A DNA stretch of 33,438 bases from Microcoleaceae cyanobacterium MO_207.B10 (GTDB taxonomy: Bacteria > Cyanobacteriota > Cyanobacteriia > Cyanobacteriales > Microcoleaceae). The first letter of the stretch is position 1. Each line of letters starts with the position of its first letter. The stretch is taken from contig JASJEE010000014.1 in assembly GCA_030064835.1 (NCBI GenBank), positions 1 to 33,438 on the forward strand. Direction: 5' to 3'. Positions 3,557 to 32,651 of this stretch are shown piece by piece. Below the pieces are notes generated by a model. That model did no database searches. It was not told the DNA's origin and saw only the letters and a list, made by a program, of their open reading frames with translations. The position numbers and the translations under genes were made by a program.

Positions 3557-4129
3557 ATAAAAGGAAGTTAACAAATTAAGGGGAATTTATGTCAGCTATT
3601 ATAATCTATGTTTTCTTTAACATAAACTCTGAAATCTCTCAAATGTATCAAAATAAAGAGATAGAGAGGTTGTAAAAATACGGAGTTACTGACATAGGTA
3701 TATTGTGATTGAGAAGTTATACCCATACAGAGTAACTTATATTATATTCTGATTGTTAACATAAATACTTTTTTTTGAATACAGAGAAGAGAAAATATCA
3801 ATTGAAAGTATTTGAATTAAGGTTGAATTTTAGCTAACAATCATTGGAGTAAGTCCAATAGTTAATTAAGATTTTAATTGAGCTTTGAAAAATGACATCA
3901 CATCATTAATACTTAAGGTTGTCAATAGTCAATAGTAGTATATGTCCAACTATTAGATAATTAAGCTCTACAAGTCCAATGTCCCCTAATCAAGGCCAAT
4001 CATTAGGTTAGGTGGATACATAAATAGGCTAAGAAAATGATATATTTGCTAAACTAGAATAGAAATAAAAAGTTGAAATATCAAAATTACCTTCGTGTAA
4101 AAGTTGCGGATAAATCAAGAGTGTATAAA
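3557..4129. other. Intergenic region between divergent genes
   Basis: About 570 bp of AT-rich DNA between the reverse-strand signalling gene and the forward protease gene. It should hold promoters for both. I see no confident -35/-10 pair, no strong hairpin and no plausible gene. Confidence 0.5.
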
Positions 4130-5866
4130 ATGAATTTTCACAGAAAAATACCCACAATTATCATTAGTAATTTGCTAAATTTAAGTATAGTTACTTTCCC
4201 AATTTCTCTATTTACAGTGAGTACAATTATCTCACTCATAACACCTCAAATATGTTTAGGATTAACAGAATCAGAAGTTAACAAAATAGCCGGAGAAATT
4301 ACAGTGAGAATTGACGGACCGAACAGAGGCGGTTCAGGAGTAATAATAGAAAAACAAGGTAATACATATTACACACTCACAAACTGGCACGTTGTCAATA
4401 AAGTAGGAGATTATCAAGTCCGCACACCCGATGGCAAACTGCACCCAGTTTACTATACTTTGATCAAACAAGTGCCAGGAATAGATTTAGCGATCGTACC
4501 CTTTACTAGCACTCAAAACTATCCCATTGCTGAAAAGGGAAACCCCTCCGAATTAGTTCAGGGAAACAGTGTATTTGTCGGTGGTTGGCCTCGTTCTGGC
4601 AGCAACCTCCAGCAACGAATTTTTCTGAGTACACCAGGAGTAGTCAGAGGTCGTCAGCAACCCATGAGTGGGTATACTTTGCTCTATGATAATTTAGTCA
4701 GAGCTGGTATGAGTGGGGGTCCTGTGTTAGACGCAGAAGGTCGCCTAGTAGCTATTAATGGTATTGTCAAATTGCAAGAAAATTCTGATATCATCGTTTC
4801 TGGAGGCATTGAAATAGATACTTTTTGGCAATGGCGACAGCAAGTTTCGTTGCCAGAAGTTCCCACACAACCCCAAACTGCTGAAACTCCCACTACTGAA
4901 AATGCTATAACCGAACCTGTTGCTGCAAATATCCCCAGAAATCAGGGTGTATCAGAAACGGTAATGAATTTTTCTTTAGCTAGAGCGATCGCTTCCGATA
5001 TTAGTGGGGTAGTAAGCTCGGTAGTTGCTTTAAAGTCGAAAATAGTTGCTGGTAGCACTAATGGCATGATTTACCTGTGGAATCTGGGTAACGGCGAAGC
5101 GATCGCTACTTGGCAAGGTCATGCAGAATCAGTCAATTCAGTGGCGGTGACTCCAGATGAGCAGCTAGTAGTGAGTGCTAGCGATGACAAAAGCATCAAA
5201 ATTTGGAAATTGCCTCAAAGTAAAAATACCACAGAAATCACTCTTGTACGAACTTTAACAGGACATTCCGATGTAGTAGATACAGTAGCGATCGCTCCTA
5301 ATGGTCAGATTTTAGCTAGTGGCAGTTGGGATGGCACAATTAAAGTTTGGAATTTGGCTAGCGGGGAGTTACTGCGAACCTTAGAAGGACATTCAGGAGT
5401 GGTAAATGCAGTAGCCATCAGTCCGGATGGGCAATTACTGGCTAGTGGGAGCAAGGATAATACTATTAAACTATGGAATCTGCAAACAGGTCAACTAGTG
5501 CGTAATATTGATACGAATTCACTATCAGTTTTGTCTGTAGTTTTTAGTCCTGACAGACAAATATTAGCTAGTGGTAGTAGCGATGGCAGTATTAATATTT
5601 GGCAGTTAGAAACAGGAAAATTACTCCGTAGTTTGCAGGGACATTTGGATGGTGTTTGGTCGATAGCGATCGCTCCGGACGGCAAAACTCTGATCAGTGG
5701 AAGTTGGGATCAAACAATAAAATTTTGGGATATGAGTACAAGTGAGTTAAAGGGTAGTCTGGGCGGACATTCAGCTTATATTAGTTCAGTTGCCATTAGT
5801 CCAGATGGTCAAACCATAGTCAGCGGTGGTTGGGATCGGAAGATTAATATTTGGAGTATTCCTTAA
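4130..5866 (+). CDS. Secreted trypsin-like serine protease fused to WD40 propeller
   Basis: Predicted exported serine protease with a protein-binding platform. From the ATG at 4130 it is 578 residues. An in-frame TTG at 4073 would add 19 residues but puts a charged stretch before the signal peptide, so I chose ATG. A signal peptide or anchor covers ~1-45. The chymotrypsin-fold protease domain (~50-235) shows a readable triad: His87 (TNWHVV), Asp119 (GIDLAI) and Ser195 (GMSGGP). A Pro/Thr/Glu-rich linker (~240-275) leads to seven WD40 repeats (~290-578), each ending in a xxW or IW strand; seven make one closed propeller. HIP1 octamers occur inside the gene. The protease-WD40 arrangement is seen in filamentous cyanobacteria; substrates are unknown. 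It stands alone, without operon partners. Confidence 0.9.
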   Translation: MNFHRKIPTIIISNLLNLSIVTFPISLFTVSTIISLITPQICLGLTESEVNKIAGEITVRIDGPNRGGSGVIIEKQGNTYYTLTNWHVVNKVGDYQVRTPDGKLHPVYYTLIKQVPGIDLAIVPFTSTQNYPIAEKGNPSELVQGNSVFVGGWPRSGSNLQQRIFLSTPGVVRGRQQPMSGYTLLYDNLVRAGMSGGPVLDAEGRLVAINGIVKLQENSDIIVSGGIEIDTFWQWRQQVSLPEVPTQPQTAETPTTENAITEPVAANIPRNQGVSETVMNFSLARAIASDISGVVSSVVALKSKIVAGSTNGMIYLWNLGNGEAIATWQGHAESVNSVAVTPDEQLVVSASDDKSIKIWKLPQSKNTTEITLVRTLTGHSDVVDTVAIAPNGQILASGSWDGTIKVWNLASGELLRTLEGHSGVVNAVAISPDGQLLASGSKDNTIKLWNLQTGQLVRNIDTNSLSVLSVVFSPDRQILASGSSDGSINIWQLETGKLLRSLQGHLDGVWSIAIAPDGKTLISGSWDQTIKFWDMSTSELKGSLGGHSAYISSVAISPDGQTIVSGGWDRKINIWSIP

Positions 5867-11685: not shown

Positions 11686-14091
11686 GTGACTGACGATTTT
11701 AATCAAAATTTTACACCGCCATCTGCTGATTTTGAAACTATTACCACATTAGAATTAAGAGAACAAGCGATTCAGAGAATTCGCTCCCAGTTACGACCGG
11801 GACAACAACAAATGGCTGATTGGCAAGGTGGGCCTTTGGCCGTTTCAGCAGTTCCGGGGGCGGGAAAGTCCCATGGTATGGCAGCAGCAGCAGCATTAGC
11901 GATCGCCCGTTATCAATTACATAGCCGTCGTCAATTAATTGTTGTGACTTTTACCCGTTCAGCAGCCGCTAATATTAGAAGTAAAATTAGAGAACATTTA
12001 AGGCAATTATCTTTACCTCAAGGCAGTTTTGTTGTTCATACTTTGCACGGTTTAGCCTTGAGTATTGCTTTGCGCCACCCCGAATTATCGGAGTTAGATT
12101 TAGAAAATTCGACATTAATTCTTCCCACTCCAAGTAATAGAATAACTCGTGCTTGTGTAGAAAAATGGATTGCAGAAAATCGTCGGTTATATCAACTTTT
12201 AATTGAAGGAATTCAATTTGATGGGGAAGAAACAGAACGTTTAAGAAGACAATCAGTTTTGCGTACAGAAATATTACCTCAATTAGCTTGGAAAGCCATT
12301 CAACAAGCCAAAAGTTCTGGTCTGAAACCGGAAGATTTGTGGCAACTAAAATCACAAAGTAATGATAATTATCAGGTTTTAAATATTGCTGCTAATTTAT
12401 ATCAAACCTATCAACAAATATTACGCGATCGCCAATTAATAGACTACGACGAAATGATTTTGGCTGCTTTGCGAGTATTAGAAAACGAAAGCGCCAGAAA
12501 AATGTGGCAAAATCAAGTATTTGCGGTGTTTGAAGATGAAGCCCAAGATTCTACACCCTTGCAAACTAAACTATTAGAAATACTGGCAGCTTCTAGTGAA
12601 AATCCTGACAATAACTTAGGCTTTACTTTTATTCCCCAGGAGCAAAGATTATCAAAACTAAATAATCTAAATTTGATGCGAGTAGGAGACCCAAATCAAG
12701 CAATTAACTCCACATTTACCCCGGCCGATCCGATAGATTTTCGGCGGTTTTGTGAAGACTGTGAAGAATTAGAAAGACTGGCAACTATGGAACAAGCAGG
12801 ACGCAGTTGCCAAATAATAATTGATGCTGCGAATTTTGTTTTGAAATGGGCAAATAATTCCAGTTTAACTGGTACAGAAAAGCCTTTTCGATACCAAACT
12901 ATTTATCCTGTAACTGTTAAAAATTCAGCCAAAAATTTAGCAAAAAATATTAACCCTTCAGCTTCCGGTCGAGGTTTAGAAATCTATGAACCTAGAGATA
13001 TTTATCACACCCTAGAATTGATGGGTAAACGGATAATTAATTTATTTCAAGAAAACCCAGAAGCTAACTTAGCAGTTTTAGTACGAGAGAATAAACAAGG
13101 CAAATTTATAGCAGATACTTTTGCTAATCCTGGGAAATATGGAGTTGATATTGATTTAGGTAAACATGACATTAAAATATACGACGTTTCTCAAGGTGCC
13201 CGTCACTCTCAAATTCCCGCAGAAATATTAGCATTAATGCAATTTATTGACCGTCCCCACTCTCCAGATTATTTAAAAGCTGCCTTAAAAATTTTAGGCG
13301 ATCGCCGATTAATTCCTAAGTTTGATTATAATACTTTATCTTCTCAGCCAGAACAATTTCTTTATCCAGGGCCTTTAGACCCTTATCAATCAGAAAAAGT
13401 GCGTAAATGTCGTGATTTTTGTCGTACTTTACTCAAAGCAAGATTAGAATTACCTTTATATCAACTCATATTTTTTCTAGCTTTAGCACTAAATTATGAA
13501 CAATCAGATTTAGCAACAGCTGATAAATTAGCGGCAAGAGTAGCTAAACAAATTATCGGAAATACTTCCATGAATTCCATCTTAGAAGTATTAAGTGAAA
13601 TCGTAGGTTCTGAGCGATTTGAACCTGTCGAAGTAGAAGAAGATGCCGAAAAAAATTATACTCGGACTCAGCAACTTACTATTATCACAATGCACAAAGC
13701 TAAGGGTTTAGATTGGGATTATGTATTTCTACCTTTTTTACATGAAGTAATAATTCCTGGTAGCGTTCGAGTCTTACCTCAAGCCAGTTTTTTAGGAGAA
13801 TTTGACTTAGCTGAAGTGGCGAGGGCACAAATTCGCGCTAGTTTACAGCAGCAAGATTTACCAGATATTTCTACTGCTTGGGAACAGGCAGGATATTTAA
13901 AAACAGCAGAAGAATTTCGTTTATTATATGTGGCAATGACACGAGCAAAGCGTTTGCTATGGATGTCTGCCGCAAAATTAGCTCCTTTTACTTGGAATAA
14001 ACCAGAGAATTTACAAGAACAAAAACCTTGCCCGGTTTTTCCTGTTTTAAGAACTGAGTTTCCGGGTAGTGTAATTATTGGGAATGATTAA
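11686..14091 (+). CDS. UvrD/Rep-like SF1 ATP-dependent DNA helicase
   Basis: An 801-residue superfamily-1A helicase that should unwind or translocate on single-stranded DNA. Motifs in order: a Q-motif-like LRPGQQQMADW (~36-46); Walker A AVPGAGKS (55-62); motif Ia VVTFTRSAAANI (~85-96); motif II FEDEAQD (282-288); motif III LMRVGDPNQAIN; motif V TMHKAKGLDWDYVF; and motif VI YVAMTRAKR (748-756). Size and motifs fit UvrD/PcrA-type enzymes, but the sequence is more divergent than housekeeping UvrD. It starts at GTG with no visible ribosome site, so the start is uncertain. At least three HIP1 octamers lie inside. The PIWI-RE island begins 417 bp downstream on the same strand; the gap carries a hairpin and repeat debris, so a separate transcript is likelier. 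Confidence 0.9.
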   Translation: MTDDFNQNFTPPSADFETITTLELREQAIQRIRSQLRPGQQQMADWQGGPLAVSAVPGAGKSHGMAAAAALAIARYQLHSRRQLIVVTFTRSAAANIRSKIREHLRQLSLPQGSFVVHTLHGLALSIALRHPELSELDLENSTLILPTPSNRITRACVEKWIAENRRLYQLLIEGIQFDGEETERLRRQSVLRTEILPQLAWKAIQQAKSSGLKPEDLWQLKSQSNDNYQVLNIAANLYQTYQQILRDRQLIDYDEMILAALRVLENESARKMWQNQVFAVFEDEAQDSTPLQTKLLEILAASSENPDNNLGFTFIPQEQRLSKLNNLNLMRVGDPNQAINSTFTPADPIDFRRFCEDCEELERLATMEQAGRSCQIIIDAANFVLKWANNSSLTGTEKPFRYQTIYPVTVKNSAKNLAKNINPSASGRGLEIYEPRDIYHTLELMGKRIINLFQENPEANLAVLVRENKQGKFIADTFANPGKYGVDIDLGKHDIKIYDVSQGARHSQIPAEILALMQFIDRPHSPDYLKAALKILGDRRLIPKFDYNTLSSQPEQFLYPGPLDPYQSEKVRKCRDFCRTLLKARLELPLYQLIFFLALALNYEQSDLATADKLAARVAKQIIGNTSMNSILEVLSEIVGSERFEPVEVEEDAEKNYTRTQQLTIITMHKAKGLDWDYVFLPFLHEVIIPGSVRVLPQASFLGEFDLAEVARAQIRASLQQQDLPDISTAWEQAGYLKTAEEFRLLYVAMTRAKRLLWMSAAKLAPFTWNKPENLQEQKPCPVFPVLRTEFPGSVIIGND

Positions 14092-14136
14092 ACCACTTAA
14101 TTTTTTTTCATTCATAGAAGTCGGTTTAGCAATAAA

Positions 14137-14173
14137 TATCTCACGGGGTGACAGCCTGCTGTACCGTGAGATA
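14137..14173 (+). terminator. Strong hairpin after SF1 helicase gene
   Basis: TATCTCAC...GTGAGATA forms an 8-bp outer stem continued by GGT-ACAG/CTGTACC inner pairing with small bulges around a CCTG loop. It starts 45 nt after the helicase stop. No T-tract follows, so termination would be weak or factor-dependent. It could instead be a mobile-element hairpin. Confidence 0.35.
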
Positions 14174-14203
14174 AGGGTTTAAAGTATTAAAGCTACGTAT
14201 AAT

Positions 14204-14214
14204 ATCATGTCCGG
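14204..14214. repeat. Solo copy of ATCATGTCCGG MITE end
   Basis: Identical to both terminal inverted repeats of the element at 24411-24512. No partner inverted end was found nearby, so this is a remnant or a chance match. Confidence 0.4.
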
Positions 14215-14461
14215 TAGCATCGGAGTGTGTATGAAATTAAATCATAATTGCAAGAAACCCTTCAGCGTTGATTACTATATGTAGGCGTTTGAATCACAAC
14301 TGTGACAAAAGTGCCGTTAAGGCTAAAAGCGTTGCTTGATAAAGATTTCAGTCATTACAAATGTTTACTATCAAAATCGATAGCAGGCTCTCTCATACTT
14401 TCTTCATTGTGCTTAATCTTGTGGCCAAAAAAATTAAATTTTTATAAAATCCTTAAATTCG

Positions 14462-14505
14462 ATATTTTACATCATATAATGTAAACATATTTAGATGTAA
14501 AATAT
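14462..14505 (+). promoter_or_regulatory. Dyad operator around -10 box of PIWI-RE operon
   Basis: ATATTTTACATC (14462-14473) and its exact complement GATGTAAAATAT (14494-14505) form a 12-bp perfect dyad with a 20-bp spacer. The spacer holds TATAAT (14475-14480), a likely -10 box, and the small palindrome ATGTAAACAT (14479-14488). The right arm ends 3 nt before the first start codon of the operon. The -35 region (CTTAAA) is weak, as in controlled promoters. The first gene encodes a MerR-like DNA-binding domain, so autoregulation is plausible. The dyad is seen; its function is inferred. Confidence 0.5.
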
Positions 14506-14508
14506 TTT

Positions 14509-16056
14509 ATGTATTTTGAAGATGTCCGTCAGTGGCAAGGAACTGCTGATGGTCTGACAAAAGAACTAAAACGACAAGCTGAACAGCTTGGACTATCTGT
14601 TGAACCACCAGCTTTGCGAACTGTCCGACAATGGAGAGCAAAACAGCTCTTATCTCAGGGAAAAGGGGAAAAATTCGGATTTCGTCAAATTTTGGAAGGA
14701 TTGGCCACAACTATTCTATTAAAGCGAGGCTGGACATTAGTAGCGATCGCTGAAGTTTTACCATCATTCTCTAATATGGCTTTAGAACAACAAATTATTG
14801 CGGAGACTAATAATCAAGACCCTACTTGGTCGCCTGCTTTGCAAACAGCTATTCTACCATTACCTACGGGACACGCAAGTAAACCTGACTTGGCTGAAAA
14901 TGCTGTGGTGTTGTTTGCACAGGGAATTATACGACAATATACAAGAGTTCTGAATGAAGAAATTGTCAGTCAAGAGGATAGGATGCCATCAGAACTCCAT
15001 CGAGCAATGTGCAAATTAGGTCGTCTATATATAGAAGAAGGAAAAGCTGACAAAGCAGCTTGCATCCATACAATTCTGGAACGTGCTAGATATCCCCTGA
15101 GTGCTGATGAATGGGAGTTGGAAATTTTTCGTCATCCAGACTTTCGCTTTCGTCAAGCAACTCTCATCGAACCTGAGTTACGAGTACCAACTTCAGATTG
15201 TGCAGAAATTGCTAATTCTACAGGTGCTTTTGGAGAAGACAATGTAATACAACGTAATTTGTACGAACGATTAATTCAAATAACCGAACAATTAGGCAGT
15301 CGTCGCCAACATAAAGCTTATACAGCAATACGAGAAATGTTTGGCAGGCGATCGCTGATTGGAGAATATCAATTACTAGATTATATAGAAGAAAACGAAC
15401 TTACTCCTGTTCAGGGAAAAATTATTGAGGCTTTTTTTGACCGAGTGCAGGATATTTGGTTAATTGACGGACTTGCTCATCGCTGTGGTTATTGTGGCAC
15501 TTTGCTGCGACCTCATCCCAATCAAAAACGGTTTCCATTGGGTCGATGTCCGATTCGCCAATGTGAAAATTATGAGCCGAGGGAAGCAAAAGTTTCGGAA
15601 AAATTAGACCCTAAAAAGGAGCCTTTACTTATTGCTAAACCGCAAATCTTAACATATTGGACTGGACCTGGGATTGATGAAATAGCAATATTTGATGTTG
15701 CTCGAAAAAACGGACTTGATACGGAACTATATCCTGATTCTGACAAATGTGACATAGGGGTAAACGGTCGCAGTATTGGCATTGATGCTAAATCTTACAC
15801 CAGTCCAGTCTCCCTCGGTTTGCGACTTAACCGCAGTATTGGAGGGCTAAAATATTATCGTCGCCGGATTATAGCAGTTAGCGATCGCTTAGTAAGGGAT
15901 AACCCAGATTATCTCTCTAGCTTAGAGTCTACCTTAGAAAAAAAAGGTGATGCTGCGACTTTAGAAGTTTGTACAGTTTCGGAAGTTATTCAGTTATTAG
16001 TAGGACTTACGCAAAGAAACCCGATTTCTACGAGTAATCCTTGTGTTGAACAATAG
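14509..16056 (+). CDS. PIWI-RE island nuclease: MerR-like HTH, zinc ribbon, PD-(D/E)xK
   Basis: First gene of the PIWI-RE island, 515 residues, matching the restriction-endonuclease-fold partner of pPIWI_RE. A MerR-like winged helix spans ~36-90 (RTVRQWRAKQLL, then FRQILEGLATTILLKRGWTL). Zinc-ribbon cysteines are Cys326, Cys329, Cys347 and Cys352. The nuclease core has Glu391, Asp415 (CDIGVNG) and Asp426-Ala-Lys428 (IGIDAKS), a complete E...D...DxK active site, so DNA cleavage is expected. Start: ATG right after the dyad operator; no clear ribosome site. Oddity: from residue 499 the protein reads through a MITE, so its last 17 residues and stop are element-derived. Without the element the frame would end 11 nt inside the helicase gene. 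Three HIP1 octamers inside suggest long residence in cyanobacteria. Function in defence is inferred from the family. Confidence 0.85.
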   Translation: MYFEDVRQWQGTADGLTKELKRQAEQLGLSVEPPALRTVRQWRAKQLLSQGKGEKFGFRQILEGLATTILLKRGWTLVAIAEVLPSFSNMALEQQIIAETNNQDPTWSPALQTAILPLPTGHASKPDLAENAVVLFAQGIIRQYTRVLNEEIVSQEDRMPSELHRAMCKLGRLYIEEGKADKAACIHTILERARYPLSADEWELEIFRHPDFRFRQATLIEPELRVPTSDCAEIANSTGAFGEDNVIQRNLYERLIQITEQLGSRRQHKAYTAIREMFGRRSLIGEYQLLDYIEENELTPVQGKIIEAFFDRVQDIWLIDGLAHRCGYCGTLLRPHPNQKRFPLGRCPIRQCENYEPREAKVSEKLDPKKEPLLIAKPQILTYWTGPGIDEIAIFDVARKNGLDTELYPDSDKCDIGVNGRSIGIDAKSYTSPVSLGLRLNRSIGGLKYYRRRIIAVSDRLVRDNPDYLSSLESTLEKKGDAATLEVCTVSEVIQLLVGLTQRNPISTSNPCVEQ

Positions 16057-16102
16057 ATGTCTACAAGAAACGGGGTTTCTGAGTTCGCCTGTGTAAATCC
16101 TG
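16001..16102. mobile_element. ~102-bp MITE at nuclease/helicase junction
   Basis: Terminal inverted repeats are AGGACTTACGCA (16002-16013) and TGTGTAAATCCT (16090-16101), 10/12 complementary. Inner inverted blocks AGAAACCCGATTTCT and AGAAACGGGGTTTCT give it long hairpin potential. ATTAG directly flanks both sides (15996-16000 and 16103-16107), a likely 5-bp target duplication. The AGGACTTACGCA/AGAAACCC words are typical of small dispersed repeats in filamentous cyanobacteria. It has no transposase. It supplies the nuclease C-terminus and most of the spacer before the helicase start. Confidence 0.75.
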
Positions 16103-16119
16103 ATTAGAAAAGATAAAAC

Positions 16120-19100
16120 ATGAGAATTAAATCTAATTTATGGACGGGAGTAGAGAGAATTTGCTGGCTTTGCGTTTTGATGGAAGAATTTATAGGAATT
16201 AACTCACTAGAAAATATTCCTCTACTGATGTCTGGTATGGCAAGTATCTATAACGCTCCTCGGTTGCAAACTGCTCGTCAAGCACTATTCAATATACGTC
16301 AGATGTCTTTGGCTTATGTTACTAGACCATCATTAATACACGGTGTAGCTATCTACAACGACGAACATTATCGAAACGGAACTGAGGGAGTTTACAGGAT
16401 TAACTTGGAAACACTTGCTTTTGAACGCACCGATCCCTTAGAAGACCCTAGTATTAGTGAAGCACGTCAAATACTCAGTCAACCTTTACGGCAACAAGAA
16501 TACAGCATCAGAGTTGCTAATCCATCTCAACCAATGGTAGTTAGTTTAGGAGAAGCAACAACAGCCGTTAGGATACCAATCGGACCGATTACAGCACCAC
16601 TAGCTCCACGTCGGACTCATTCTCTCAACCGATTACCCAGGGGAAGTATCCAGGTTTCCTTATCAGAATTATACGACCTGGCAGTTGAGATGGATATTCG
16701 CGAAGCAAACTATCCAGAAAGAAGACGGGAAAACTGGGCGGGACGTTTTGAACGTTTTGCTCTGATGGTACCAGAAGCAGATGTAGGGTTGCGTGAGGAC
16801 GACAAAATCGAATTAGAAGCAATCAAACATCTAATTGGATTACCGGGAGCGGGTAAAACTACCTTGCTCATCTTGTTAGCTGTGTGGTTGGGAAGAAACG
16901 GTTATAAAGCGATGTTTGTGTTTCCTTCCATAGCAGTTGCTAGACAATACATGGCAAAATTAGCATTTCACAATATTCGAGTAGGAATGTTGGTTGGTCA
17001 GAGTGATGAAACTCGTCGCCGACACGCGGATAATATTGCCGAAGCGATCGCTGCATCAGGAGGGAATGGCGGTTTTGCTCAGACTCTGGAACAAGCAGAA
17101 ACCTTCAGTCTGAATTGTGTTTTGCCTGCTTTTTCTAATGCTGATAGTTCAATATGGGGTTTTGGTTATGCTCCCTGTGGGCAAATTTTACAAATGGATG
17201 AAAAAAAGGAGGAGATGAGAAATTTCCTTTGCCCAGTTTGGACAATGTGCGGTCGTAACAAAGCTCCACGGGATTTAATAGATGCTGATATTTGGGTCGG
17301 TCATATTTTGTCAATGGATACTAAAGTATCACCCCATGCTATAGATGAGCAAGTTCGATATTTTGAATTGATTGCTAGAACATTTGATGTTGTAGTTTTC
17401 GATGAAGCAGACATGGTGCAGTCTGTACTGGATGATTATGGAGCAGCAACTTTGAAACTTTCAGGAGCGGTAAACTCAATTCATTTAGTTATTCAAGAGC
17501 AAATTCATAATCGTTTTGCGAGGGGAGAAAACTATAGATTATTTGACCGCGCTGTTGAACTTTACAGTCGTGACTTAGCAGAATTTGGCAATCATAATAC
17601 TTCCCTGGTTACTACTGTGCAAAATTTGCAGAACTCATCGCGAGTTGGAAAACGCTATGAAAATCAATTGTTAAGTGTTTTCAGAATTATTTGCGATTTG
17701 TTAGATGGTTTAGGAATAACTTCCAGACGAGAGAAGCTTAACGAACAACAATTTCAACGTGAAACACAAAGAAATCGCGCTCTTAAAGAATTTTGGGAAA
17801 CTGCTGCTTATCATGCTTTTTACGATCGTACTGGGATTGAACCTCACAACCGACTTAATGTAGAATTGTGCGCTCAGAGATTAGAACTTGAGAGGGATAT
17901 TCTCAGAGATAAGTGGGAAAAACTGATTCGTTATTTTTCTCGTTATCTGGCAGAAAATCTCATTCAACGACGGGATAAAATTGTTGAAGAAATTGCCGAA
18001 TTATTTTTATCGGTATGTTTTCCTTGTAGTAAATATCCAGGAGAAGCTGAGAGTGTAATTAAATTACTTATCTGTATTACTTTCGTGATTTTAGGATATC
18101 AAAGAATTGTACCAGGAACGCGGACAATGGTAGCGGAGGGGTTGATTCGGGAACCTATTGTCGAATCAACCGCATCCCCAGAAATGAGAAAAGTAATTTC
18201 TGAGAGTCTTTTAGGTTCTTTTTCTGGAGTGAAATACAGTTTCAGGACAGCCAAAACTACTCGCACTCAAGCACAAAATGTCGAACTATCTTACATTAGA
18301 TTTGTGGGTGCGCCACGATTGCTGATGTACCGCTTTCAGAATTTGTTTGAAGCAGATGGCAGCTCTTCGAGACCTGCTATTTTAATGACTTCAGCTACCT
18401 CATTTTTAGAGGCGAGTCCTGCTTATCACATTAGTTCTGGACCTGATTATTTGCTTAAACCTCGGACAACTACAGGGGAACAAAATCAGAGCGTTTATTA
18501 TTTCAAATGGTTGACAGATTCAGAACAGGGCGATAAACCACTTCGATACAGTGGAGCGGGGGATTTGAGAGACCGCAATTTAATTAAAATGGTGGATGTA
18601 CTTATCAAAGGAGGAATCAAAAAATCAGAAGTATATAAATCTATGCGCAACTTCGACGAGCAACACGGAATATACCGGAAAGCTGCTTTTGTTGTTAACA
18701 GTTACGAACAAGCTCGCGATATCAAGAAACATCTCAATGATTATTATCCCGAAGTCGGCAAAAAAACAAAAGCTATTGTTCGTGCTTTGAAACATGGGGA
18801 AAAAGCAACTGATTTTGTCACAACTTCTCAGTGCGAAGCATTGGGGGATGATGAAACTTGCGACCTGATTATTTTTCCCATGTTAGCAATAGGTAGAGGT
18901 GTGAATATTGTTTTCACTAAAGGAGAGAGAAAACTTGATGCTGCTATTGGTTCAATTTATTTCCTAACTCGTCCTCATCCTACTACTGACGATATGCAGC
19001 TTTTGTATAGTTTAGCTGGTAAAGCAACCTTAGAATTTGACCGACAAATTTTTACCGAAGCTGATGATTTATCTGAAATTTCTGATGCTTTTGAACGGTC

Positions 19101-19548
19101 AAAAAAAGAATTACGAAGAGTAACAAATCGTCTTTTAAGAGAACCTTTAATGGCTAGTCGTTTAGGGGAAGATTTGTTTAAATCATTTACTGCTAATCAA
19201 ATGGTAAATATTTTACAAACAATTGGTCGGGGAATGCGAAATGGTTGTCCGGTGCAAGTTTATTTTGTTGATGCAGCTTGGGCGTATAATTCTACTAATT
19301 CTGATAAGAATAAGCCCGACTCAGGACGAAATAGTATGTTAGTTCAAATGCGAATTATTTTAGAGGAATGTGTTAATCATCCTAATCCTGTAATTCGCGA
19401 AATTTATCAAGAACTTTATGGGGCATTTCTAACACCTTTGCAGGATGTTAGAGGTGTAGTTTATCCTAAAAGTTTTTCTGTTTCTGAAGATTTTACAGAA
19501 ACAGATGAAGATGAATTTGATAACTTTGATGAAATTTTGGAGATGTAA
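16120..19548 (+). CDS. PIWI-RE island DinG/XPD-like SF2 helicase
   Basis: Second gene of the island, 1142 residues, matching the DinG-type helicase that accompanies pPIWI_RE. An N-terminal ~200-residue family-specific region (WTGVERICWLCVLMEE onward) precedes the motor. Walker A is GLPGAGKT (240-247); motif II is FDEAD (427-431); motif V is AIGRGVNI (~923-930); motif VI is QTIGRGMRNG (1033-1042). Between Walker A and the DEAD box lie Cys333, Cys353, Cys371 and Cys377, where XPD/DinG enzymes hold a 4Fe-4S cluster. The expected role is unwinding DNA or R-loop substrates for the PIWI-RE protein. ATG at 16120 is kept because family-like sequence starts at once; no clear ribosome site is present, only A-rich DNA just after the MITE. 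Its 3' end overlaps the ribosome site of the next gene. Confidence 0.87.
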   Translation: MRIKSNLWTGVERICWLCVLMEEFIGINSLENIPLLMSGMASIYNAPRLQTARQALFNIRQMSLAYVTRPSLIHGVAIYNDEHYRNGTEGVYRINLETLAFERTDPLEDPSISEARQILSQPLRQQEYSIRVANPSQPMVVSLGEATTAVRIPIGPITAPLAPRRTHSLNRLPRGSIQVSLSELYDLAVEMDIREANYPERRRENWAGRFERFALMVPEADVGLREDDKIELEAIKHLIGLPGAGKTTLLILLAVWLGRNGYKAMFVFPSIAVARQYMAKLAFHNIRVGMLVGQSDETRRRHADNIAEAIAASGGNGGFAQTLEQAETFSLNCVLPAFSNADSSIWGFGYAPCGQILQMDEKKEEMRNFLCPVWTMCGRNKAPRDLIDADIWVGHILSMDTKVSPHAIDEQVRYFELIARTFDVVVFDEADMVQSVLDDYGAATLKLSGAVNSIHLVIQEQIHNRFARGENYRLFDRAVELYSRDLAEFGNHNTSLVTTVQNLQNSSRVGKRYENQLLSVFRIICDLLDGLGITSRREKLNEQQFQRETQRNRALKEFWETAAYHAFYDRTGIEPHNRLNVELCAQRLELERDILRDKWEKLIRYFSRYLAENLIQRRDKIVEEIAELFLSVCFPCSKYPGEAESVIKLLICITFVILGYQRIVPGTRTMVAEGLIREPIVESTASPEMRKVISESLLGSFSGVKYSFRTAKTTRTQAQNVELSYIRFVGAPRLLMYRFQNLFEADGSSSRPAILMTSATSFLEASPAYHISSGPDYLLKPRTTTGEQNQSVYYFKWLTDSEQGDKPLRYSGAGDLRDRNLIKMVDVLIKGGIKKSEVYKSMRNFDEQHGIYRKAAFVVNSYEQARDIKKHLNDYYPEVGKKTKAIVRALKHGEKATDFVTTSQCEALGDDETCDLIIFPMLAIGRGVNIVFTKGERKLDAAIGSIYFLTRPHPTTDDMQLLYSLAGKATLEFDRQIFTEADDLSEISDAFERSKKELRRVTNRLLREPLMASRLGEDLFKSFTANQMVNILQTIGRGMRNGCPVQVYFVDAAWAYNSTNSDKNKPDSGRNSMLVQMRIILEECVNHPNPVIREIYQELYGAFLTPLQDVRGVVYPKSFSVSEDFTETDEDEFDNFDEILEM

Positions 19549-19550
19549 TT

Positions 19551-22500
19551 ATGAATGAAGAAATTTTTGACGAAATTGAACAAAATGAGGAAGAGGAAAA
19601 TGAAACTCAAGTTGTTCCAGACACTCTTTACATTCAGCAAGCTAATAAAAGTTTTGGAGAAATTCCTCTAGCTTTGACTGTACCAGATAATTTAGAGCCT
19701 GTAAAAGTTGAAGGCTTTACTTTGGCTTGGCAAAAAGTTGCTTTAGGTATTCTGAAAGATATTCAAAAATCAACTCTAACTCAGGATAAATCCCAATCAA
19801 AAAATCTGCCTTATGTTTCTCTCAGGGGTTTATTAGAAATAGGGCTAGATAACGTAACTAGAATTCAGTCAAATTTATCTCTAAGTCAGTATTATTTTAA
19901 TTCTCAAGAACCTCAGCCATTTGCTTATTTAGATGGAGGAGATAAAGACACAATTATCAAATTGCTGCGCCCTATTCTTAATGATTGGATTACAAATCAT
20001 TTGAAACCTTTTACTGAAAGAGAAAATATAGACCCGAAAAAAATTGATGATTTATTAGATTTGTATGAGAAGGATGAATTACTAACAATTAAAGGTTTAT
20101 ACCAATTTCAAATATTACCTTGGGAATGGAACAAAACTGGTACAGCTCAAGGAAAAGGCTATCAATATAGGGTTTTAATAGATTATTTAGCTCGAAAAAT
20201 TGCTGGTAAAGAAATCTTCAAAGATTTAGGACCAATAAAACGAATTATTTCTAGTAGCAGTAGTTTCAGAACTGGCACGACAGAATTAATTACTAATCCG
20301 ATTAGTCTGGAAAATACCAAGGGAAAATTTAGCCTAGTAGTATCCTTAGAAATAGTAACATATCCTTCTGTACATCAGCCTTTATTAAAGATTGATGTTT
20401 CCAAGCGACGTTGGTTATATGATTTAGGAACTCCTAGTTTTAATTCGGGAAAAATTAGTGGTTTTATCTTTTCTGAAAAGTATAGCGACCGCTGTTTTAG
20501 TTATCAGGTACTTTGCCAAAAAGATAAACAGAAAAAAAAGCCAAAAGAAGAGCAAAAACAGAATAATTGGCGTTGGGTACTCAGTTCAGATTTTGAAGCT
20601 TTACGTCGCAAGTTAAAACTGCCATTAACAATCAGTAATCCCCAAGAAATTGCTGTAGGTAAAGCTTCAGATAGTAGTTGTCAAGTGATGTTAACTCACC
20701 GCTATAGATTAGAAAAAGATGACAAGCATGACATAAAAGCAGGCGTACCAGAGATTGATAAATTAGAGGCTTTTGAAGCAATTAAAGAAATTATTCAAGA
20801 GATTGGTTTTGAACCTTTTAATAGTTACTCATCAGTTGATATTAAAGCAATTAAAAGTCATAAACCAGATAAGACAGGCTCCCGGATGATTAACTTTCCG
20901 ACTCTAATAAGTGCTGCTTTAGAACTTCAAGAAAAAGGTAATTGTGACAATTTTGAATTTACAGATAATTATCTGAAAAATGTTGATGAACAACAATTAA
21001 ATAAGTTGCTTAAAAAAAACTTTGAAATTGAGGTAGACAAAATAAGTAGAGGAATAAAAGCGTTTGCATTTAATCAAAAAATTAAACCACAGTTTACTGA
21101 ACTTAAGGATTGGATTCAAACCAACCAAACAGCAATAGAAAGTTTTGATAATCAAGAAAAAATGTTGCTGGTTATTTTCTATGAAAACCAGTTAAAAACA
21201 GAAGTAAAACTGTTAGAAACTCTAATAAAAATGCTTTGTGGTGAAGCCATTGAAGTTATGGCAAATCGTCTGCCAGAAAATACTCATGGACCGAAAGAAG
21301 ATTTGCCTGGATATAACTTAAATGCTAAAGATCGATCGCGTAAACGAATTGAAACATGGCAACCAATAGTCAAACAACTTGCTTTACGCAACCAAAGAAC
21401 TTTTTGTTTGATATTAGCACCAGAATATTACCCAGATAATAAACATGATGACAACGTAAATAAACCTTCAACTCGTCAAGCTTTAGCTCAAGTTGCTAGT
21501 GCTTGCGTCCAGTTTCTGCTGCCCATAGAAACAACAAAAGAAAAACAGCTCAAAAAACTGGAAGACTTTTTTCATCGTTCCCAAGCTGCTCTAAAAGATT
21601 TACTTTTTGCTCACTCTGGTTACGTTTATGGTGTCAAAGAAAAAGTAGATAAATATCTCAAAGATATTCCTGAAGAAAAAAGAGCAAAAGAAATTATTGC
21701 CATTACCATAGTTCGCAAACAAAAAGGTCGAACTCGTGGCAACATTGGTCAGACATTTTTACCAATAGCTGTGCGTCTCAATGTAGAGACAGGAAAATGT
21801 GAACTCTCTTGTGCTTATGAAAAAGGAGAACGTTTAGAAATTACTCCCTGGAGTCAATTTGCTGATGGTATCACCTTAATTTCTAATATTTCTCCCGTGA
21901 AACTAGCCGATAAAAAAGAGGCACGTCAGAAGCGTTTTATGGAATTTATGAAACAGATTATTTCTGATTCTGTTGAAGAAGGCAACCAACCATTAGTCAT
22001 GATCGACTCTTCTAACTGCGTACAACTATGTCCTTGGCTTGCGGATAGCAGGATAAATGCTAAAAAAATTGATTTGATACTCTCAACAGATACTCCTCTC
22101 CATCAACACATGGAACAAGAATGGGAAGGCGCACGAATATTTAGGATTCGTCAAGACCTTGCTCCTGGTATCATAGACAAAAAAGAACGACAACTGGTAG
22201 AAACATCCGTTGAAGATACGCGAAAAAAGGAAGATTTAAAAAAGCAAGACCCAGATTATCGTATTCCTTCAGCTTCTAGCAAAACAGGATTATTTCGACT
22301 GAGCGCAAATAGTGAAACTGGTTGTGTAGCTTATCTGTCGGTAGGACGTAAAACTCTCCAGCAAGAATCACGAGGTCAAAGTTGTTATTCTTCAACAGAA
22401 ATCACAAAAGTTTTGACAGAAACTAACGATTCTAAGGAGAAAGAGACAGTTCTGAATAAGGCAGGTGAAAAAGTGCATCAGCTTGTCAGTCGCGCCCCTT

Positions 22501-22730
22501 TTACAGGACAATATCCCACTCCTAATCCTCTGGAAATAGTTGTCACCTTGCGACAACCAGAAGACGATCCAGATAGACTAGCTCTATTAGTAGAATCTTT
22601 GCGCTATGATTTTGGTCATTATAGTGATTGGTCTAGTTTACCTGCTCCCCTCTTCTTCGAGCGAGTTGTAAGAGATTATATTAGTGACTTTGCTTTTGAA
22701 GATGAGGAAGATAACGAGGAGGGAAGATAA
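19551..22730 (+). CDS. pPIWI_RE family Argonaute-related protein
   Basis: Third gene of the island, 1059 residues, a prokaryotic PIWI-RE protein: a divergent PIWI/RNase H-fold relative of Argonaute lacking a recognisable PAZ. The N-terminal half (~25-480) corresponds to the family-specific X region, the middle (~520-690) to a MID-like domain, and ~710-1050 to the RNase H/PIWI domain. Family signatures are readable: the ARIFRIRQDLAPGI segment (861-874) with Arg862/Arg865, and the C-terminal glutamate in PLFFERVVRDYI (Glu1037). MIDSSN places Asp819 at a core strand; whether a full catalytic set survives cannot be judged by eye. The protein should bind guide and/or target nucleic acid. It starts 2 nt after the helicase stop with GGAG in the helicase tail, so translation is probably coupled. 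The ends are highly acidic. I found no HIP1 octamer in it, unlike its partners. Confidence 0.87.
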   Translation: MNEEIFDEIEQNEEEENETQVVPDTLYIQQANKSFGEIPLALTVPDNLEPVKVEGFTLAWQKVALGILKDIQKSTLTQDKSQSKNLPYVSLRGLLEIGLDNVTRIQSNLSLSQYYFNSQEPQPFAYLDGGDKDTIIKLLRPILNDWITNHLKPFTERENIDPKKIDDLLDLYEKDELLTIKGLYQFQILPWEWNKTGTAQGKGYQYRVLIDYLARKIAGKEIFKDLGPIKRIISSSSSFRTGTTELITNPISLENTKGKFSLVVSLEIVTYPSVHQPLLKIDVSKRRWLYDLGTPSFNSGKISGFIFSEKYSDRCFSYQVLCQKDKQKKKPKEEQKQNNWRWVLSSDFEALRRKLKLPLTISNPQEIAVGKASDSSCQVMLTHRYRLEKDDKHDIKAGVPEIDKLEAFEAIKEIIQEIGFEPFNSYSSVDIKAIKSHKPDKTGSRMINFPTLISAALELQEKGNCDNFEFTDNYLKNVDEQQLNKLLKKNFEIEVDKISRGIKAFAFNQKIKPQFTELKDWIQTNQTAIESFDNQEKMLLVIFYENQLKTEVKLLETLIKMLCGEAIEVMANRLPENTHGPKEDLPGYNLNAKDRSRKRIETWQPIVKQLALRNQRTFCLILAPEYYPDNKHDDNVNKPSTRQALAQVASACVQFLLPIETTKEKQLKKLEDFFHRSQAALKDLLFAHSGYVYGVKEKVDKYLKDIPEEKRAKEIIAITIVRKQKGRTRGNIGQTFLPIAVRLNVETGKCELSCAYEKGERLEITPWSQFADGITLISNISPVKLADKKEARQKRFMEFMKQIISDSVEEGNQPLVMIDSSNCVQLCPWLADSRINAKKIDLILSTDTPLHQHMEQEWEGARIFRIRQDLAPGIIDKKERQLVETSVEDTRKKEDLKKQDPDYRIPSASSKTGLFRLSANSETGCVAYLSVGRKTLQQESRGQSCYSSTEITKVLTETNDSKEKETVLNKAGEKVHQLVSRAPFTGQYPTPNPLEIVVTLRQPEDDPDRLALLVESLRYDFGHYSDWSSLPAPLFFERVVRDYISDFAFEDEEDNEEGR

Positions 22731-22775
22731 TGTTTTAGGATAGGGAAAATTACAAAGTTTTGCCAGACTTTTAGA

Positions 22776-22791
22776 CCGGGTTAAAACCCGG
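22776..22791 (+). terminator. Candidate terminator of PIWI-RE operon
   Basis: CCGGGTTAAAACCCGG, a GC-rich perfect stem, lies 45 nt after the PIWI-RE stop. Only CAATCTTATTT follows, so the T-tract is poor. It could equally be a small dispersed palindrome. Confidence 0.4.
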
Positions 22792-22956
22792 CAATCTTAT
22801 TTCCTCTAACCCTTAACTTAGATGACTTAATTAGTATGCTTAAAACTAGGGAAACTCAATAAGCGTGCTTACTATCCTCAAAACATTTGAGGCTTAATCC
22901 TCATATCTACATCAGTGCATTTTTTAACCCCATACTTTACTATCATTTAATCTTCA

Positions 22957-22973
22957 TTTTGTGCAACAAAGCC
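22957..22973. mobile_element. Possible IS5-family terminal inverted repeat remnant
   Basis: Read on the reverse strand this is GGCTTTGTTGCACAAAA, which resembles ends of IS5/IS903-group elements (GGCTTTGTTG...). No transposase and no matching opposite end are visible in the window, so it is at best a scar just beyond the PIWI-RE island. Confidence 0.25.
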
Positions 22974-23110
22974 GTTGTAGCAAATGAAATTTTGATCAAC
23001 CAACATTTTTAGGCTTAACGACACCTTAGTCATAGTTGGTACTCAAACGCCAAATTTATCAATGCTCTAACTCAGTCAGGGACTAATTCTGACTTGCGCG
23101 TAGTGCTAGA

Positions 23111-29399: not shown

Positions 29400-30338
29400 C
29401 TAAGTGCTATAAACATTTCCACAGTCACGATCGCTGACTATCCCATTAGGTAAAATGGTATTGCATAATTGCATTGTTTGCCAGGGGATATTTTCTGCCT
29501 CAATTCCCTGAAAACTTGCACCCTTGAGGTTCGTTTCTTTAAAATTAACCCCGATGAGAGTAATATTTCTAGGAGAAGATGTAACTGAATTTGTTTTCAA
29601 ACTACATTCCTCAGAAGCTAAACAAGCTCTTTCTAGAAACGCCAGCTCCAAATTGGTTTTTTCCAGAATAGCTCCCCCAAGATAAGTGTCAGATAAATTA
29701 GCTTTTTTGAAGTTAGTCAAGTTGAGAAAAGCACCTTGTAAATTAGCCCCTTGCAAATTTGCTTTCTTCAAGTTAGCACCTTGTAAATTTGCTCCCCGCA
29801 AGTTAGCACCTTGTAAATTTGCTCCCTCTAAATGACTATTTGTTAAGTCAGCATTTGCTAAGTTAGCCCCTTCCAAATGTGCATAAGCCAAGTTTGCACC
29901 CTGGAAATTTCCATGAGCTATTTGGGCAGCCTGAAATTTAGTACCCTGAAGATTAGCATTCTTGAGGCGAGCCCCTGTAAGGTTTGCACCTTGTAAATTT
30001 GCCAACATTAAGTCAGCATTTTCCAGCCTCGCATTTGTGAGATTAGCTACTCTAAAATTTGCATACTGAAGTTTAGATTTTTGCCATTGGGTTTCATAAC
30101 AGTTTGCTCCCTCTAAATTGATTCCTTTACCATGAGCATTTTGCAGGTTTGCTCCTTCTAGTTGAGCAAAATGAAAGTTGAATCCCTGTATACTTGCCCC
30201 TTCTAATTGACATTCCCAACATTCAGCCGTATCTAACAAATGCTGTAAAGCTAGGGGCTGAGGAAAATTCAAAGTAGCGATCGCGCTCCCTATATTCAGG
30301 AGTGCTGCTAGAGCTAATAGCAATAATAACTTTTTCAT
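29400..30338 (-). CDS. Exported pentapeptide-repeat protein
   Basis: A 312-residue protein with a Sec signal (MKK plus leucine-rich core, ~1-20). Residues ~45-245 consist of about 40 A(N/D)LxG-type pentapeptides (EGANLQGANLRGANL and similar), which fold into a right-handed quadrilateral beta-helix. A short cap (~265-312) contains two cysteines (LCNTILPNG and RDCG); another Cys pair (ECWEC) precedes the helix, so disulfide caps are likely in the periplasm. Start: ATG with AGGA ~9 nt upstream. The pgsC stop is only 13 nt upstream, so it is very probably the third gene of the pgsB-pgsC operon. Its role is unknown; a scaffold or partner for the exported polymer machinery is inference. The repeats are visible in DNA as 15-nt periodicity. 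Confidence 0.9.
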   Translation of the reverse strand: MKKLLLLLALAALLNIGSAIATLNFPQPLALQHLLDTAECWECQLEGASIQGFNFHFAQLEGANLQNAHGKGINLEGANCYETQWQKSKLQYANFRVANLTNARLENADLMLANLQGANLTGARLKNANLQGTKFQAAQIAHGNFQGANLAYAHLEGANLANADLTNSHLEGANLQGANLRGANLQGANLKKANLQGANLQGAFLNLTNFKKANLSDTYLGGAILEKTNLELAFLERACLASEECSLKTNSVTSSPRNITLIGVNFKETNLKGASFQGIEAENIPWQTMQLCNTILPNGIVSDRDCGNVYST

Positions 30339-30351
30339 CTTACCAGTCCTT

Positions 30352-31353
30352 TTAAATTAACACTTGAAGTTGGTTTATATAAGTTGCGAGGATATTGAGA
30401 GCGATCGCTACTAATCCCAAAAACGTCATATACTTCAAACCGCCTTGTTTCCAATACAACAGAGAATCATTCACCAGTGTAATCATCGCAATCACAACTA
30501 ATAAATTCAGACCTCTAAAAGGAACCAACGTCGGATTAAACATCAGTAACAACAACTCAACGCCCCAAACATAAACCACACTCATAAATAATACCAAAGC
30601 ATAACGATTTAGTCCTATGGTCAGGCTATAGCGACAAGTTAGCCAACTCAAACTCCCGACCAAAAGACACCCTAATAAAAAGCATACAGCACTAAGGGGC
30701 TGCATTAACAAAGCTGCCGCTGCTGGAAGCACAATATAGCCTCCAGGACGTACTGATGATTTTTGGTAAATCAAGTATCCCAACAGGAGTATAATACCAA
30801 ATTGAAGCAAAGGATAATTAAATTCAATATCTAGTTGGTCTGCATAAGCAGGATGAACAATGTTAAAGTCAAGATCGAGCCAAGACCAACCTAGCCAATA
30901 AATTGTTGCCACCATTCCTCCTGTAAATAGAGTAGTAATACTTATACCCTCCAAGACTTTTAAGCGGTCTTGTTTAGTCCAATTAAAAGCAATAATCGCC
31001 GGAATCAAACTTCCTGTGAGACCCTCCTCAGAAAATTCCATCCAGCCCAGATAGTCGTATAGAAAGGCAATAGGATAAACCACAAATAGAGACATCATTG
31101 CCAGAATATACATAGGTGTTCGAGGTTTCGACGAATGTTGAAAATAGCGTTGATACAGAGGGTACAAGACAAAAGCCAAGCCAATTAAACTAATACCCCA
31201 AATCGGCGATAATATTAGAGTTACTACTATAAGTCCGGGAACAATAATACCTCCAGGAATTACACCTTCACTATTTTTATAATGAACCGCTGCATAGGCA
31301 CCAATGAGTAATGCTAAACGGGTAATTTCTGAGGTGTTGAGTGATTCAAGCAT
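30352..31353 (-). CDS. pgsC: PgsC/CapC-family poly-gamma-glutamate synthesis membrane protein
   Basis: A 333-residue polytopic membrane protein of the PgsC/CapC family, the membrane partner of the ligase PgsB. The characteristic segment GVIPGGIIVPGLI (~29-41) follows the first helix. About eight to ten hydrophobic helices are visible. It is twice the length of Bacillus PgsC (~150). The second half repeats the signature in weaker form (SSVRPGGYIVLPAAAALL, ~204-220), suggesting an internal duplication. It starts at ATG inside the 3' end of pgsB (40-nt overlap), without a ribosome site, just after the A-rich pgsB repeat, so translation depends on coupling. No pgsA/capA gene is in view. The product may be poly-gamma-glutamate or a related amide-linked polymer. 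Confidence 0.85.
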   Translation of the reverse strand: MLESLNTSEITRLALLIGAYAAVHYKNSEGVIPGGIIVPGLIVVTLILSPIWGISLIGLAFVLYPLYQRYFQHSSKPRTPMYILAMMSLFVVYPIAFLYDYLGWMEFSEEGLTGSLIPAIIAFNWTKQDRLKVLEGISITTLFTGGMVATIYWLGWSWLDLDFNIVHPAYADQLDIEFNYPLLQFGIILLLGYLIYQKSSVRPGGYIVLPAAAALLMQPLSAVCFLLGCLLVGSLSWLTCRYSLTIGLNRYALVLFMSVVYVWGVELLLLMFNPTLVPFRGLNLLVVIAMITLVNDSLLYWKQGGLKYMTFLGLVAIALNILATYINQLQVLI

Positions 31354-32651
31354 ACTTTTTGTTTGTTTTTTTTCGGTTTGTTTTTTTTCGGTTTGTTTTT
31401 TTTCGGTTTGCTTTTTTTCCTTTTGGTTTTTTGTCGTGTTTCCAAGGTGGGACTCTGGGCTAAGGTTTGGAATAAACTGAGAAGTTCTTGTGCTTGTGGA
31501 GTATGGATGTTGACAGCTCCCACTAATAGAATATTTTGCTCTTTTATTGTTTGGGTAATTTGGCTGAGTAAAGTCGTTGCTGGAGCATCTTTAAACTGAG
31601 TCGAATCACCTAGTAACAATAAATTCTCTGGTTGATTAACGAATAATTGTTTGACTTCTGTCTCGCAACTTCCGATAGTGACAACTCGTTGGAAGTTTAA
31701 ACTTTGCGCAAGCTCCGCAAATAAGGCTACCCGTGGCAGTCTATCGGAACGGTTATTGAGTAAAACAACTTTAGCGTACTGAGGATATTGGGCAAAAATA
31801 CGCTCGCACAGAAGGATAAAGCTTTCCCGATCATTGACGGCAAACATATTAGCCCAAACTATCTTATGACCTTTCCAATTCATGGATTCAAGTTTAAGAG
31901 CGCTTTCATCATTGAGAGTCTGCCACATGGCTTGAAGCGCCCTTTTCCGAGGAACTGCTAATAGCTTTGCAACTTCAAGAGCGATCGCCACATTATCTTC
32001 GAGAGCAACTGCGCTAAACCCATTCAGGTCTTGAGCCATGACTTGACTTGAGTTGGCCACAATAAGTTTAGTGCCCTTTTTTTTTGCCTGGTTCTGGAGA
32101 ATATTGAGTAATTCAGGATTTGACTCACTTGTAATCAGAGTGCCGTTTCTAGGAATAGTGACTGCTAGAGAATGAGCAATCTCTTCGAGGGTTTCTCCTA
32201 GATATTCTGGATGGTCATAGCGAACATTAGTGATAATGCTAAGATTAGACCGCATAACTTTTCTTTCTAGCCATTCTGCATAGACAGGGTTAATGGCCAT
32301 ACATTCCATAACAACTGCTTCTGCTTGCTGACGAAAAAAGTTCCGCATTACTTTTACTTGTTCGTTAACGTTAGGATAACCTTTTCGTGGCCAAACAGAC
32401 TCTTTACCATTGGGATGAAGAATATGGGCTGTACTACCAGTAATCTTACCAAAAGTTTTATAACCCCCTGCTCGCAAAACTGCTGCTACATAGCGGGTAA
32501 CGGTTGATTTTCCCCGAATCCCATTTACATGAACTCGATAGAGAAGGCGATCACGTTTTTGACTAAATTTGTGATAAGAGATAAGTAAGTAGAAGATATA
32601 AGCGCCCAAGCTGGCTAGGGTGAGTAAAAAAGGCAGACTCTCTGTTAACAT
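31314..32651 (-). CDS. pgsB: PgsB/CapB-type Mur-ligase-like amide ligase
   Basis: A 445-residue ATP-dependent amide ligase of the Mur-ligase superfamily that would elongate gamma-linked polyglutamate or a similar polymer at the membrane. One N-terminal helix (~7-27) anchors it. The P-loop is NGIRGKST (43-50). PgsB-type motifs follow: FGKITGSTAHILHPNG, an NVNEQVKVMRNFF helix, AVVMECMAINP and TNVRYDHPEYLG. The C-terminus (~405-437) is an unusual lysine-rich tail with three KPKKN units encoded by 15-nt DNA repeats. The last 13 codons overlap pgsC. It starts at ATG, 44 nt from a divergent small gene. GAGG lies ~12 nt upstream of the start. Confidence 0.9.
   Translation of the reverse strand: MLTESLPFLLTLASLGAYIFYLLISYHKFSQKRDRLLYRVHVNGIRGKSTVTRYVAAVLRAGGYKTFGKITGSTAHILHPNGKESVWPRKGYPNVNEQVKVMRNFFRQQAEAVVMECMAINPVYAEWLERKVMRSNLSIITNVRYDHPEYLGETLEEIAHSLAVTIPRNGTLITSESNPELLNILQNQAKKKGTKLIVANSSQVMAQDLNGFSAVALEDNVAIALEVAKLLAVPRKRALQAMWQTLNDESALKLESMNWKGHKIVWANMFAVNDRESFILLCERIFAQYPQYAKVVLLNNRSDRLPRVALFAELAQSLNFQRVVTIGSCETEVKQLFVNQPENLLLLGDSTQFKDAPATTLLSQITQTIKEQNILLVGAVNIHTPQAQELLSLFQTLAQSPTLETRQKTKRKKSKPKKNKPKKNKPKKNKQKVCLNHSTPQKLPV
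31361..31418. repeat. 15-bp in-frame tandem repeat in pgsB 3' end
   Basis: Three copies of GGTTTGTTTTTTTTC (period 15, three T8 tracts) plus a degenerate fourth. On the reverse strand they encode KPKKN repeats of PgsB and lie 7 nt ahead of the pgsC start. Whole-unit changes keep frame; a slip in a T8 tract would shift it. Confidence 0.85.

Follow-up and report, generated by a model that had tools for sequence, protein, structure and literature searches.

A pPIWI-RE three-gene island in a Microcoleaceae cyanobacterium, with a predicted non-slicing PIWI protein and a putative operator for its own nuclease

The window, that is the whole stretch of 33,438 nucleotides of Microcoleaceae cyanobacterium MO_207.B10 DNA that was analysed, contains three consecutive genes on the + strand, each with an ATG start and without an internal stop, separated by gaps of 63 and 2 nt (Table 1). 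They encode a nuclease protein (RE), a DinG-like helicase and a PIWI-RE protein, and all three are matched by PADLOC profiles (PprRE, 6e-113; PprDinG, 1.7e-302; PprPIWI, 2e-85). Amongst the Pfam pPIWI_RE models, REase, Z, X, MID and RNaseH lie above cut-off, and Y below it. The trio is an ordinary pPIWI-RE three-gene island of the kind described by Burroughs, Iyer and Aravind in 2013 (PMC3702460; Ppr in PADLOC) and a further member of an already described family, sharing its domain content, gene order, patchy distribution and, plausibly, the MerR-type HTH found on some REases; what differs here is that catalytic loss is counted across cyanobacterial islands. The order REase-DinG-PIWI, with close spacing, is the same in every relative whose whole island lies in the retrieved DNA. 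A preliminary description, made from the letters alone, had recognised a complete island with three open same-strand genes: the genes were found with identical boundaries, and the profile matches bear out the assignment, with RNaseH_pPIWI_RE and MID_pPIWI_RE both over cut-off in 19551-22730 and matches for the partner genes too.

Table 1. Features of the pPIWI-RE island and its surroundings (positions in the window).
Feature	Position	Strand	Basis or remark
Island-bearing, window-specific segment at the junction of two chromosomal blocks	14071..23108		Nucleotide homology to relatives
Operator-like dyad TTTACATCATATAATGTAAA (TTTACA-N8-TGTAAA), with a TATAAT -10-like hexamer inside (14475-14480)	14466..14485		Motif conservation
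Half-site 3, ATGTAAA, lying 16 nt downstream of half-site 2	14495..14501		Not present in L035, L088 and L089, the members that diverge most
Gene 1 (RE), 515 aa: MerR-like HTH, Y domain, zinc ribbon and PD-(D/E)xK nuclease	14509..16056	+	
MerR-like winged-helix domain at the N-terminus (residues 1-100), which probably binds the operator	14509..14808	+	AF2 helices, weak MerR fold matches
pPIWI_RE_Y domain, partial match, residues 183-277	15055..15339	+	Below Pfam cut-off in this copy
Zinc ribbon C326, C329, C347, C352	15484..15564	+	28-sequence alignment
pPIWI_RE REase domain, catalytic E391, D415, D426-x-K428	15670..15993	+	Pfam and alignment
Gene 2 (1142 aa), DinG-like SF2 helicase carrying a Z domain at its N-terminus	16120..19548	+	
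pPIWI_RE_Z domain, residues 5-169	16132..16626	+	Pfam
Fe-S cysteine region C333, C353, C371, C377	17116..17250	+	Invariant in 30 helicases
Gene 3, PIWI-RE protein, 1059 aa, predicted slicer-inactive	19551..22730	+	
pPIWI_RE_X domain, residues 41-441	19671..20873	+	Pfam
MID domain, residues 551-693, conserved K638, R642, Q654, R676	21201..21629	+	Pfam and 44-member comparison
RNase H (PIWI) domain, residues 715-1045: R865/R867, E995 and D819 kept, first catalytic Asp absent, DEDX X = R1038	21693..22685	+	
Terminator-like hairpin, downstream of the operon	22776..22791	+	Consensus scan only

For the first gene, a PD-(D/E)xK nuclease with a zinc ribbon and a MerR-like HTH had been proposed. The nuclease and the ribbon are borne out by the pPIWI_RE_REase match (5.5e-16, over cut-off; pPIWI_RE_Y, 3.2e-4, falls below it) and by the zinc (C326/C329/C347/C352) and REase (E391/D415/D426/K428) residues, which are invariant in an alignment of 28 sequences from close relatives. 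The HTH is plausible, but its fold matches are weak and a Pfam search gave it no match. Compared with the PDB, the AF2 model of the protein (pLDDT 77.0, pTM 0.54; helices of the N-terminal domain, pLDDT 74-92) returns weak matches throughout, with XPF/Hef/Mus81 nucleases and MerR-family regulators among them; for the HTH region, Foldseek found the MerR regulators HiNmlR and Tn501 MerR (E 1.9-2.8, prob 0.66-0.69). These matches are consistent with the PD-(D/E)xK and MerR-like assignments, short of proof. Sequence searches of the PDB using the PIWI and RE proteins gave chance matches only. The second gene is, as had been suggested, a DinG/XPD-like helicase: it carries the Z domain (pPIWI_RE_Z, 1.1e-27) in addition to its PprDinG match, and Walker A K246, the DEAD box (428-431) and the four Fe-S cysteines are all invariant in the helicase alignment.

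Purifying selection acts on the island genes, with dN/dS values against the nearest relative of 0.14 for RE, 0.20 for DinG and 0.33 for PIWI (overall range 0.12-0.37). Together with the intact REase and helicase motifs, this supports an active system. The earlier verdict of an 'intact and functional' copy is not supported in the form given: open frames are no proof of function, one of the motifs cited for it was wrong, and PIWI catalytic residues have been lost.

The PIWI-RE protein is matched by RNaseH_pPIWI_RE (7.8e-49), pPIWI_RE_X (8e-47) and MID_pPIWI_RE (2.7e-18). A structural comparison with Argonaute had been proposed, and all seven PDB matches to the AlphaFold2 model (mean pLDDT 76.7) at E<=0.001 are indeed Argonautes, the best at 5.8e-9, with modest TM-scores (0.3-0.5). 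In a comparison of 44 distinct members, most of them from cyanobacterial islands and two proteobacterial, 41-43 retain the MID residues K638, R642, Q654 and R676, at a spacing (+4, +12, +22) similar to that of Y463/K467/Q478/K506 in the guide pocket of RsAgo, the pAgo Y-K-Q-K pocket (PMC6299218). Such conservation implies that a free 5' end is anchored, and this counts against the guide-free R-loop sensor of Burroughs 2013, in which PIWI-RE would see RNA-DNA hybrids on transcribed invader DNA and recruit DinG and the REase without stored small guides. That DinG-type helicases act on R-loops (PMC3702460), and that the islands share neither a neighbouring gene for making guides nor an array, would both suit such a sensor; considering the kept pocket, we find it fairly improbable.

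In the RNase H domain, the conserved Arg and Glu are R865/R867 (43/44) and E995 (41/44). Of two segments cited in the preliminary description, ARIFRIRQDLAPGI does hold the conserved R-x-R, but the Glu of PLFFERVVRDYI (E1037, in PLFFERV) is a subclade feature, present in 29 of the 44 members, and not the family Glu, which is E995. The first RNase H strand spans residues 714-722 in the model, and its mid-β1 position, 719, is Asp or Glu in no member (in three, a Glu stands at 721); the position of D819, where strand 4 ends, is occupied by Asp in 33. Argonautes carry the last DEDX residue in the motif P-A-P-x-Y-Y-A-[H/D], and by alignment to it we take R1038 to be the last (X) position, where Arg occurs in 28 of the 44 members and D or H in none. 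With neither the first catalytic Asp nor a D or H at the DEDX X position, the protein is predicted not to slice, the catalytic positions having been mapped by fold topology and not by direct alignment to PsPIWI-RE. The latter, from Pseudomonas stutzeri, belongs to the same family, and its gene is reported beside a DinG helicase; it is a guide-binding protein that acts on RNA/DNA pairs, and it is enough to mutate either of two residues, in D525A or D610A, to abolish its cleavage, with R and E mutants still cleaving (PMC10991935). PsPIWI-RE keeps D525 and D610 and cleaves, whereas the protein here, on the topology mapping, is without the first Asp (as are 44/44) and keeps D819.

Could the PIWI-RE itself nonetheless be the active slicer, with the REase as an accessory? 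The slicing by PsPIWI-RE and the retention of D819 would speak for this, and, as D819 is retained in the clade, some residual activity may persist. Yet the complete absence of suitable residues at the mid-β1 and X positions, set beside the abolition of PsPIWI-RE activity by the loss of either Asp, makes an active slicer highly improbable in our estimation. Uniform loss of the first Asp in these islands was not found in the literature searched, which took in little subscription literature and few preprints.

A second line of evidence comes from the DNA ahead of the first gene, where the outer arms of the operator-like dyad (14462-14505) make up an extended, imperfect palindrome. Allowing no more than one mismatch, the dyad is found ahead of gene 1 in 19 of 20 independent contexts (related islands grouped by upstream sequence), against a mean of 0.07 and a maximum of 1 in dinucleotide shuffles; its half-site columns carry 1.5-2.0 bits versus mostly 0.1-0.8 in the flanks, and only the last ~60 nt 5' of gene 1 are common to islands at unrelated positions. 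TTTACA-N8-TGTAAA has a single exact match in its own 6.24-Mb genome. In relatives it usually sits downstream of TTGACA, across the -10 region; in the window the dyad includes TATAAT, the TTGACA -35 box of the relatives is absent, and a generic promoter scan gave a score not above shuffles. Where the REase is without this N-terminal HTH (18 islands compared), the dyad always has at least three mismatches, and the MerR-like N-terminal domain is present only in the clade with the operator. On the simplest reading, the dyad is probably an operator for autorepression by the nuclease's own HTH. Autoregulation by the REase HTH was among the options raised by Burroughs et al. (PMC3702460); neither the layout of the operator nor its link to a single type of HTH is described in the pPIWI-RE papers PMC3702460 and PMC10991935.

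A conserved repressor-type operator would also fit a dangerous product, such as an abortive-infection effector whose REase degrades host DNA on sensing an invader and kills the cell, a mode known for some inactive long pAgo systems (stated in PMC11096173). We regard this as very unlikely, given that there is no sign of toxicity here and that the analogous ApsAB is without evidence of killing (PMC11096173).

Elsewhere in the family, the region ahead of the REase takes other forms. Long palindromes unlike the cyanobacterial dyad lie 5' of HTH-bearing REases in two genera of other phyla, Hymenobacter (L109, from about 52 to 8 nt ahead of 6482) and Cupriavidus (L107, from about 59 to 12 nt ahead of 6493). 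In three alphaproteobacterial islands, a divergent WYL-domain gene is found directly 5' of an HTH-less REase (L106 5917-6735, L108 5949-6800, L129 3959-4867).

As for the genomic setting, nucleotide homology to relatives runs out at the stop codon of UvrD (about 14070) and restarts at that of DLH (about 23109), and in the relatives the UvrD-side and DLH-side blocks are either on separate contigs or some 395 kb from each other; the 9-kb segment therefore sits at a junction. Beyond the trio, no neighbour gene is common to more than 3/18 contexts. The UvrD helicase (11686-14091) was considered as a fourth component and rejected, being a near-universal host gene (59/60 family genomes) that is not beside other islands. 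Near both ends of the window-specific segment are imperfect inverted repeats (14284-14360 and 22975-23051; 67 nt at 81%, 77 nt at 78%), and a genome search with the left copy (14284-14360) gave no other significant match. Direct repeats of 41-124 nt, which differ between loci, flank some other islands (L033, L036, L037, L031, L050). As a common attachment site the flanking repeats were rejected: the window has them inverted, some relatives have them as direct repeats and most relatives lack them, so that they offer no shared signal. No guide RNA or array near the island was found as an Rfam match in the window.

Across relatives the family is patchy, with a PIWI-RE RNase H match in 38/149 genomes. 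Related islands are found on plasmids of Microchaete, Tolypothrix, Calothrix, Bradyrhizobium and Cupriavidus, some of them conjugative, and several relatives hold broken copies; a helicase-profile search of viral contigs confirmed no relative on phages. This distribution bears upon a housekeeping or replication/repair role, in which the trio would resolve R-loops or help complete replication. Deletion of the P. stutzeri PIWI-RE does lead to greater ciprofloxacin sensitivity and filamentation (PMC10991935), and the relatives of DinG are repair helicases; however, the patchy presence, the plasmid carriage, the repeated decay and the rearranged, non-syntenic site all tell against such a role, and we consider it unlikely.

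Several further observations concern related islands and the surrounding DNA. The same genome carries a remnant of a second pPIWI-RE island (L065 7805-9367; G000:C158), consisting of a REase of 375 aa that looks intact and a helicase reduced to its Z domain; no second PIWI was found. On alphaproteobacterial plasmid islands of Azospirillum, Microvirga and Bradyrhizobium, PIWI-RE proteins are annotated at about 3100-3400 aa (L106 11404-19405, L108 11410-19393, L129 9378-15366); in the Azospirillum protein, Pfam covers the first ~1000 aa only, and the remainder is thus an extension without an assigned domain. A GDP-mannose dehydratase-like gene (L065 3525-5807) has an apparent intein (Intein_splicing domain). 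In the window itself, 4073-5866 encodes WD40 repeats fused to a trypsin-like protease domain, and CapC-like and Mur-ligase/CapB-like genes adjoin a pentapeptide-repeat protein (29400-32651).

We hold with moderate confidence that the island is a pPIWI-RE DNA-interference operon in which the PIWI aims, DinG opens, the REase cuts and its own HTH represses. The pairing of an intact nuclease and helicase with an inactive PIWI that has kept its guide pocket points to just such a division of labour. The MID pocket of PIWI-RE would hold the 5' end of a short guide, or perhaps the RNA strand of a hybrid, and the loaded protein would pair with invading DNA without cutting it; the DinG-like Fe-S helicase would then open the target or translocate along it, and the zinc-ribbon PD-(D/E)xK protein would cleave it, so that plasmids or phages are destroyed. 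Meanwhile, the MerR-like domain of RE would sit on TTTACA-N8-TGTAAA over the promoter and keep the operon repressed. We infer the type of guide, the target, the order of steps, the operator occupancy and the defence role, the last by analogy with family precedent. In the founding paper, too, invader restriction by pPIWI-RE was a prediction only (PMC3702460), and the only tested PIWI-RE, that of P. stutzeri, slices and has a ciprofloxacin and cell-division phenotype, not one of defence (PMC10991935).

Parallels to the proposed interference operon exist outside the family. In ApsAB, an Argonaute-like guide-pocket protein and a helicase/PD-(D/E)xK nuclease remove plasmids, and the pocket Lys is required (PMC11096173). 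What is shared, by analogy and as judged from its description, is a guide-pocket protein without a slicer site, an SF2 helicase and a PD-(D/E)xK nuclease; ApsB, however, is without the PIWI RNase H fold, and in ApsAB a single protein combines the helicase with the nuclease. DdmDE of Vibrio cholerae likewise combines an Argonaute-like protein with a helicase-nuclease partner (PMC11096173). The PADLOC scan of the island returned no match to ApsAB or DdmDE subunits.

Perhaps the HTH-REase also serves as its own switch. It would occupy the three-half-site operator until PIWI and DinG, on engaging invader DNA, draw it off and derepress the operon, making target engagement and induction one event; in other island types, LexA-like or other HTH fusions and divergent WYL regulators would replace this switch. 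We offer this idea as speculation, with our expectation leaning against it.

Complete pPIWI-RE three-gene islands were predicted in 2013, and in the literature we found neither an experimental test of one nor a functional test of a cyanobacterial island. The island described here offers testable handles, namely a defined candidate operator, a predicted split of labour between PIWI and REase, and specific residues. If the proposed mechanism is true, PIWI-RE would join the defences that couple an inactive Argonaute to a helicase-nuclease, such as ApsAB and DdmDE.
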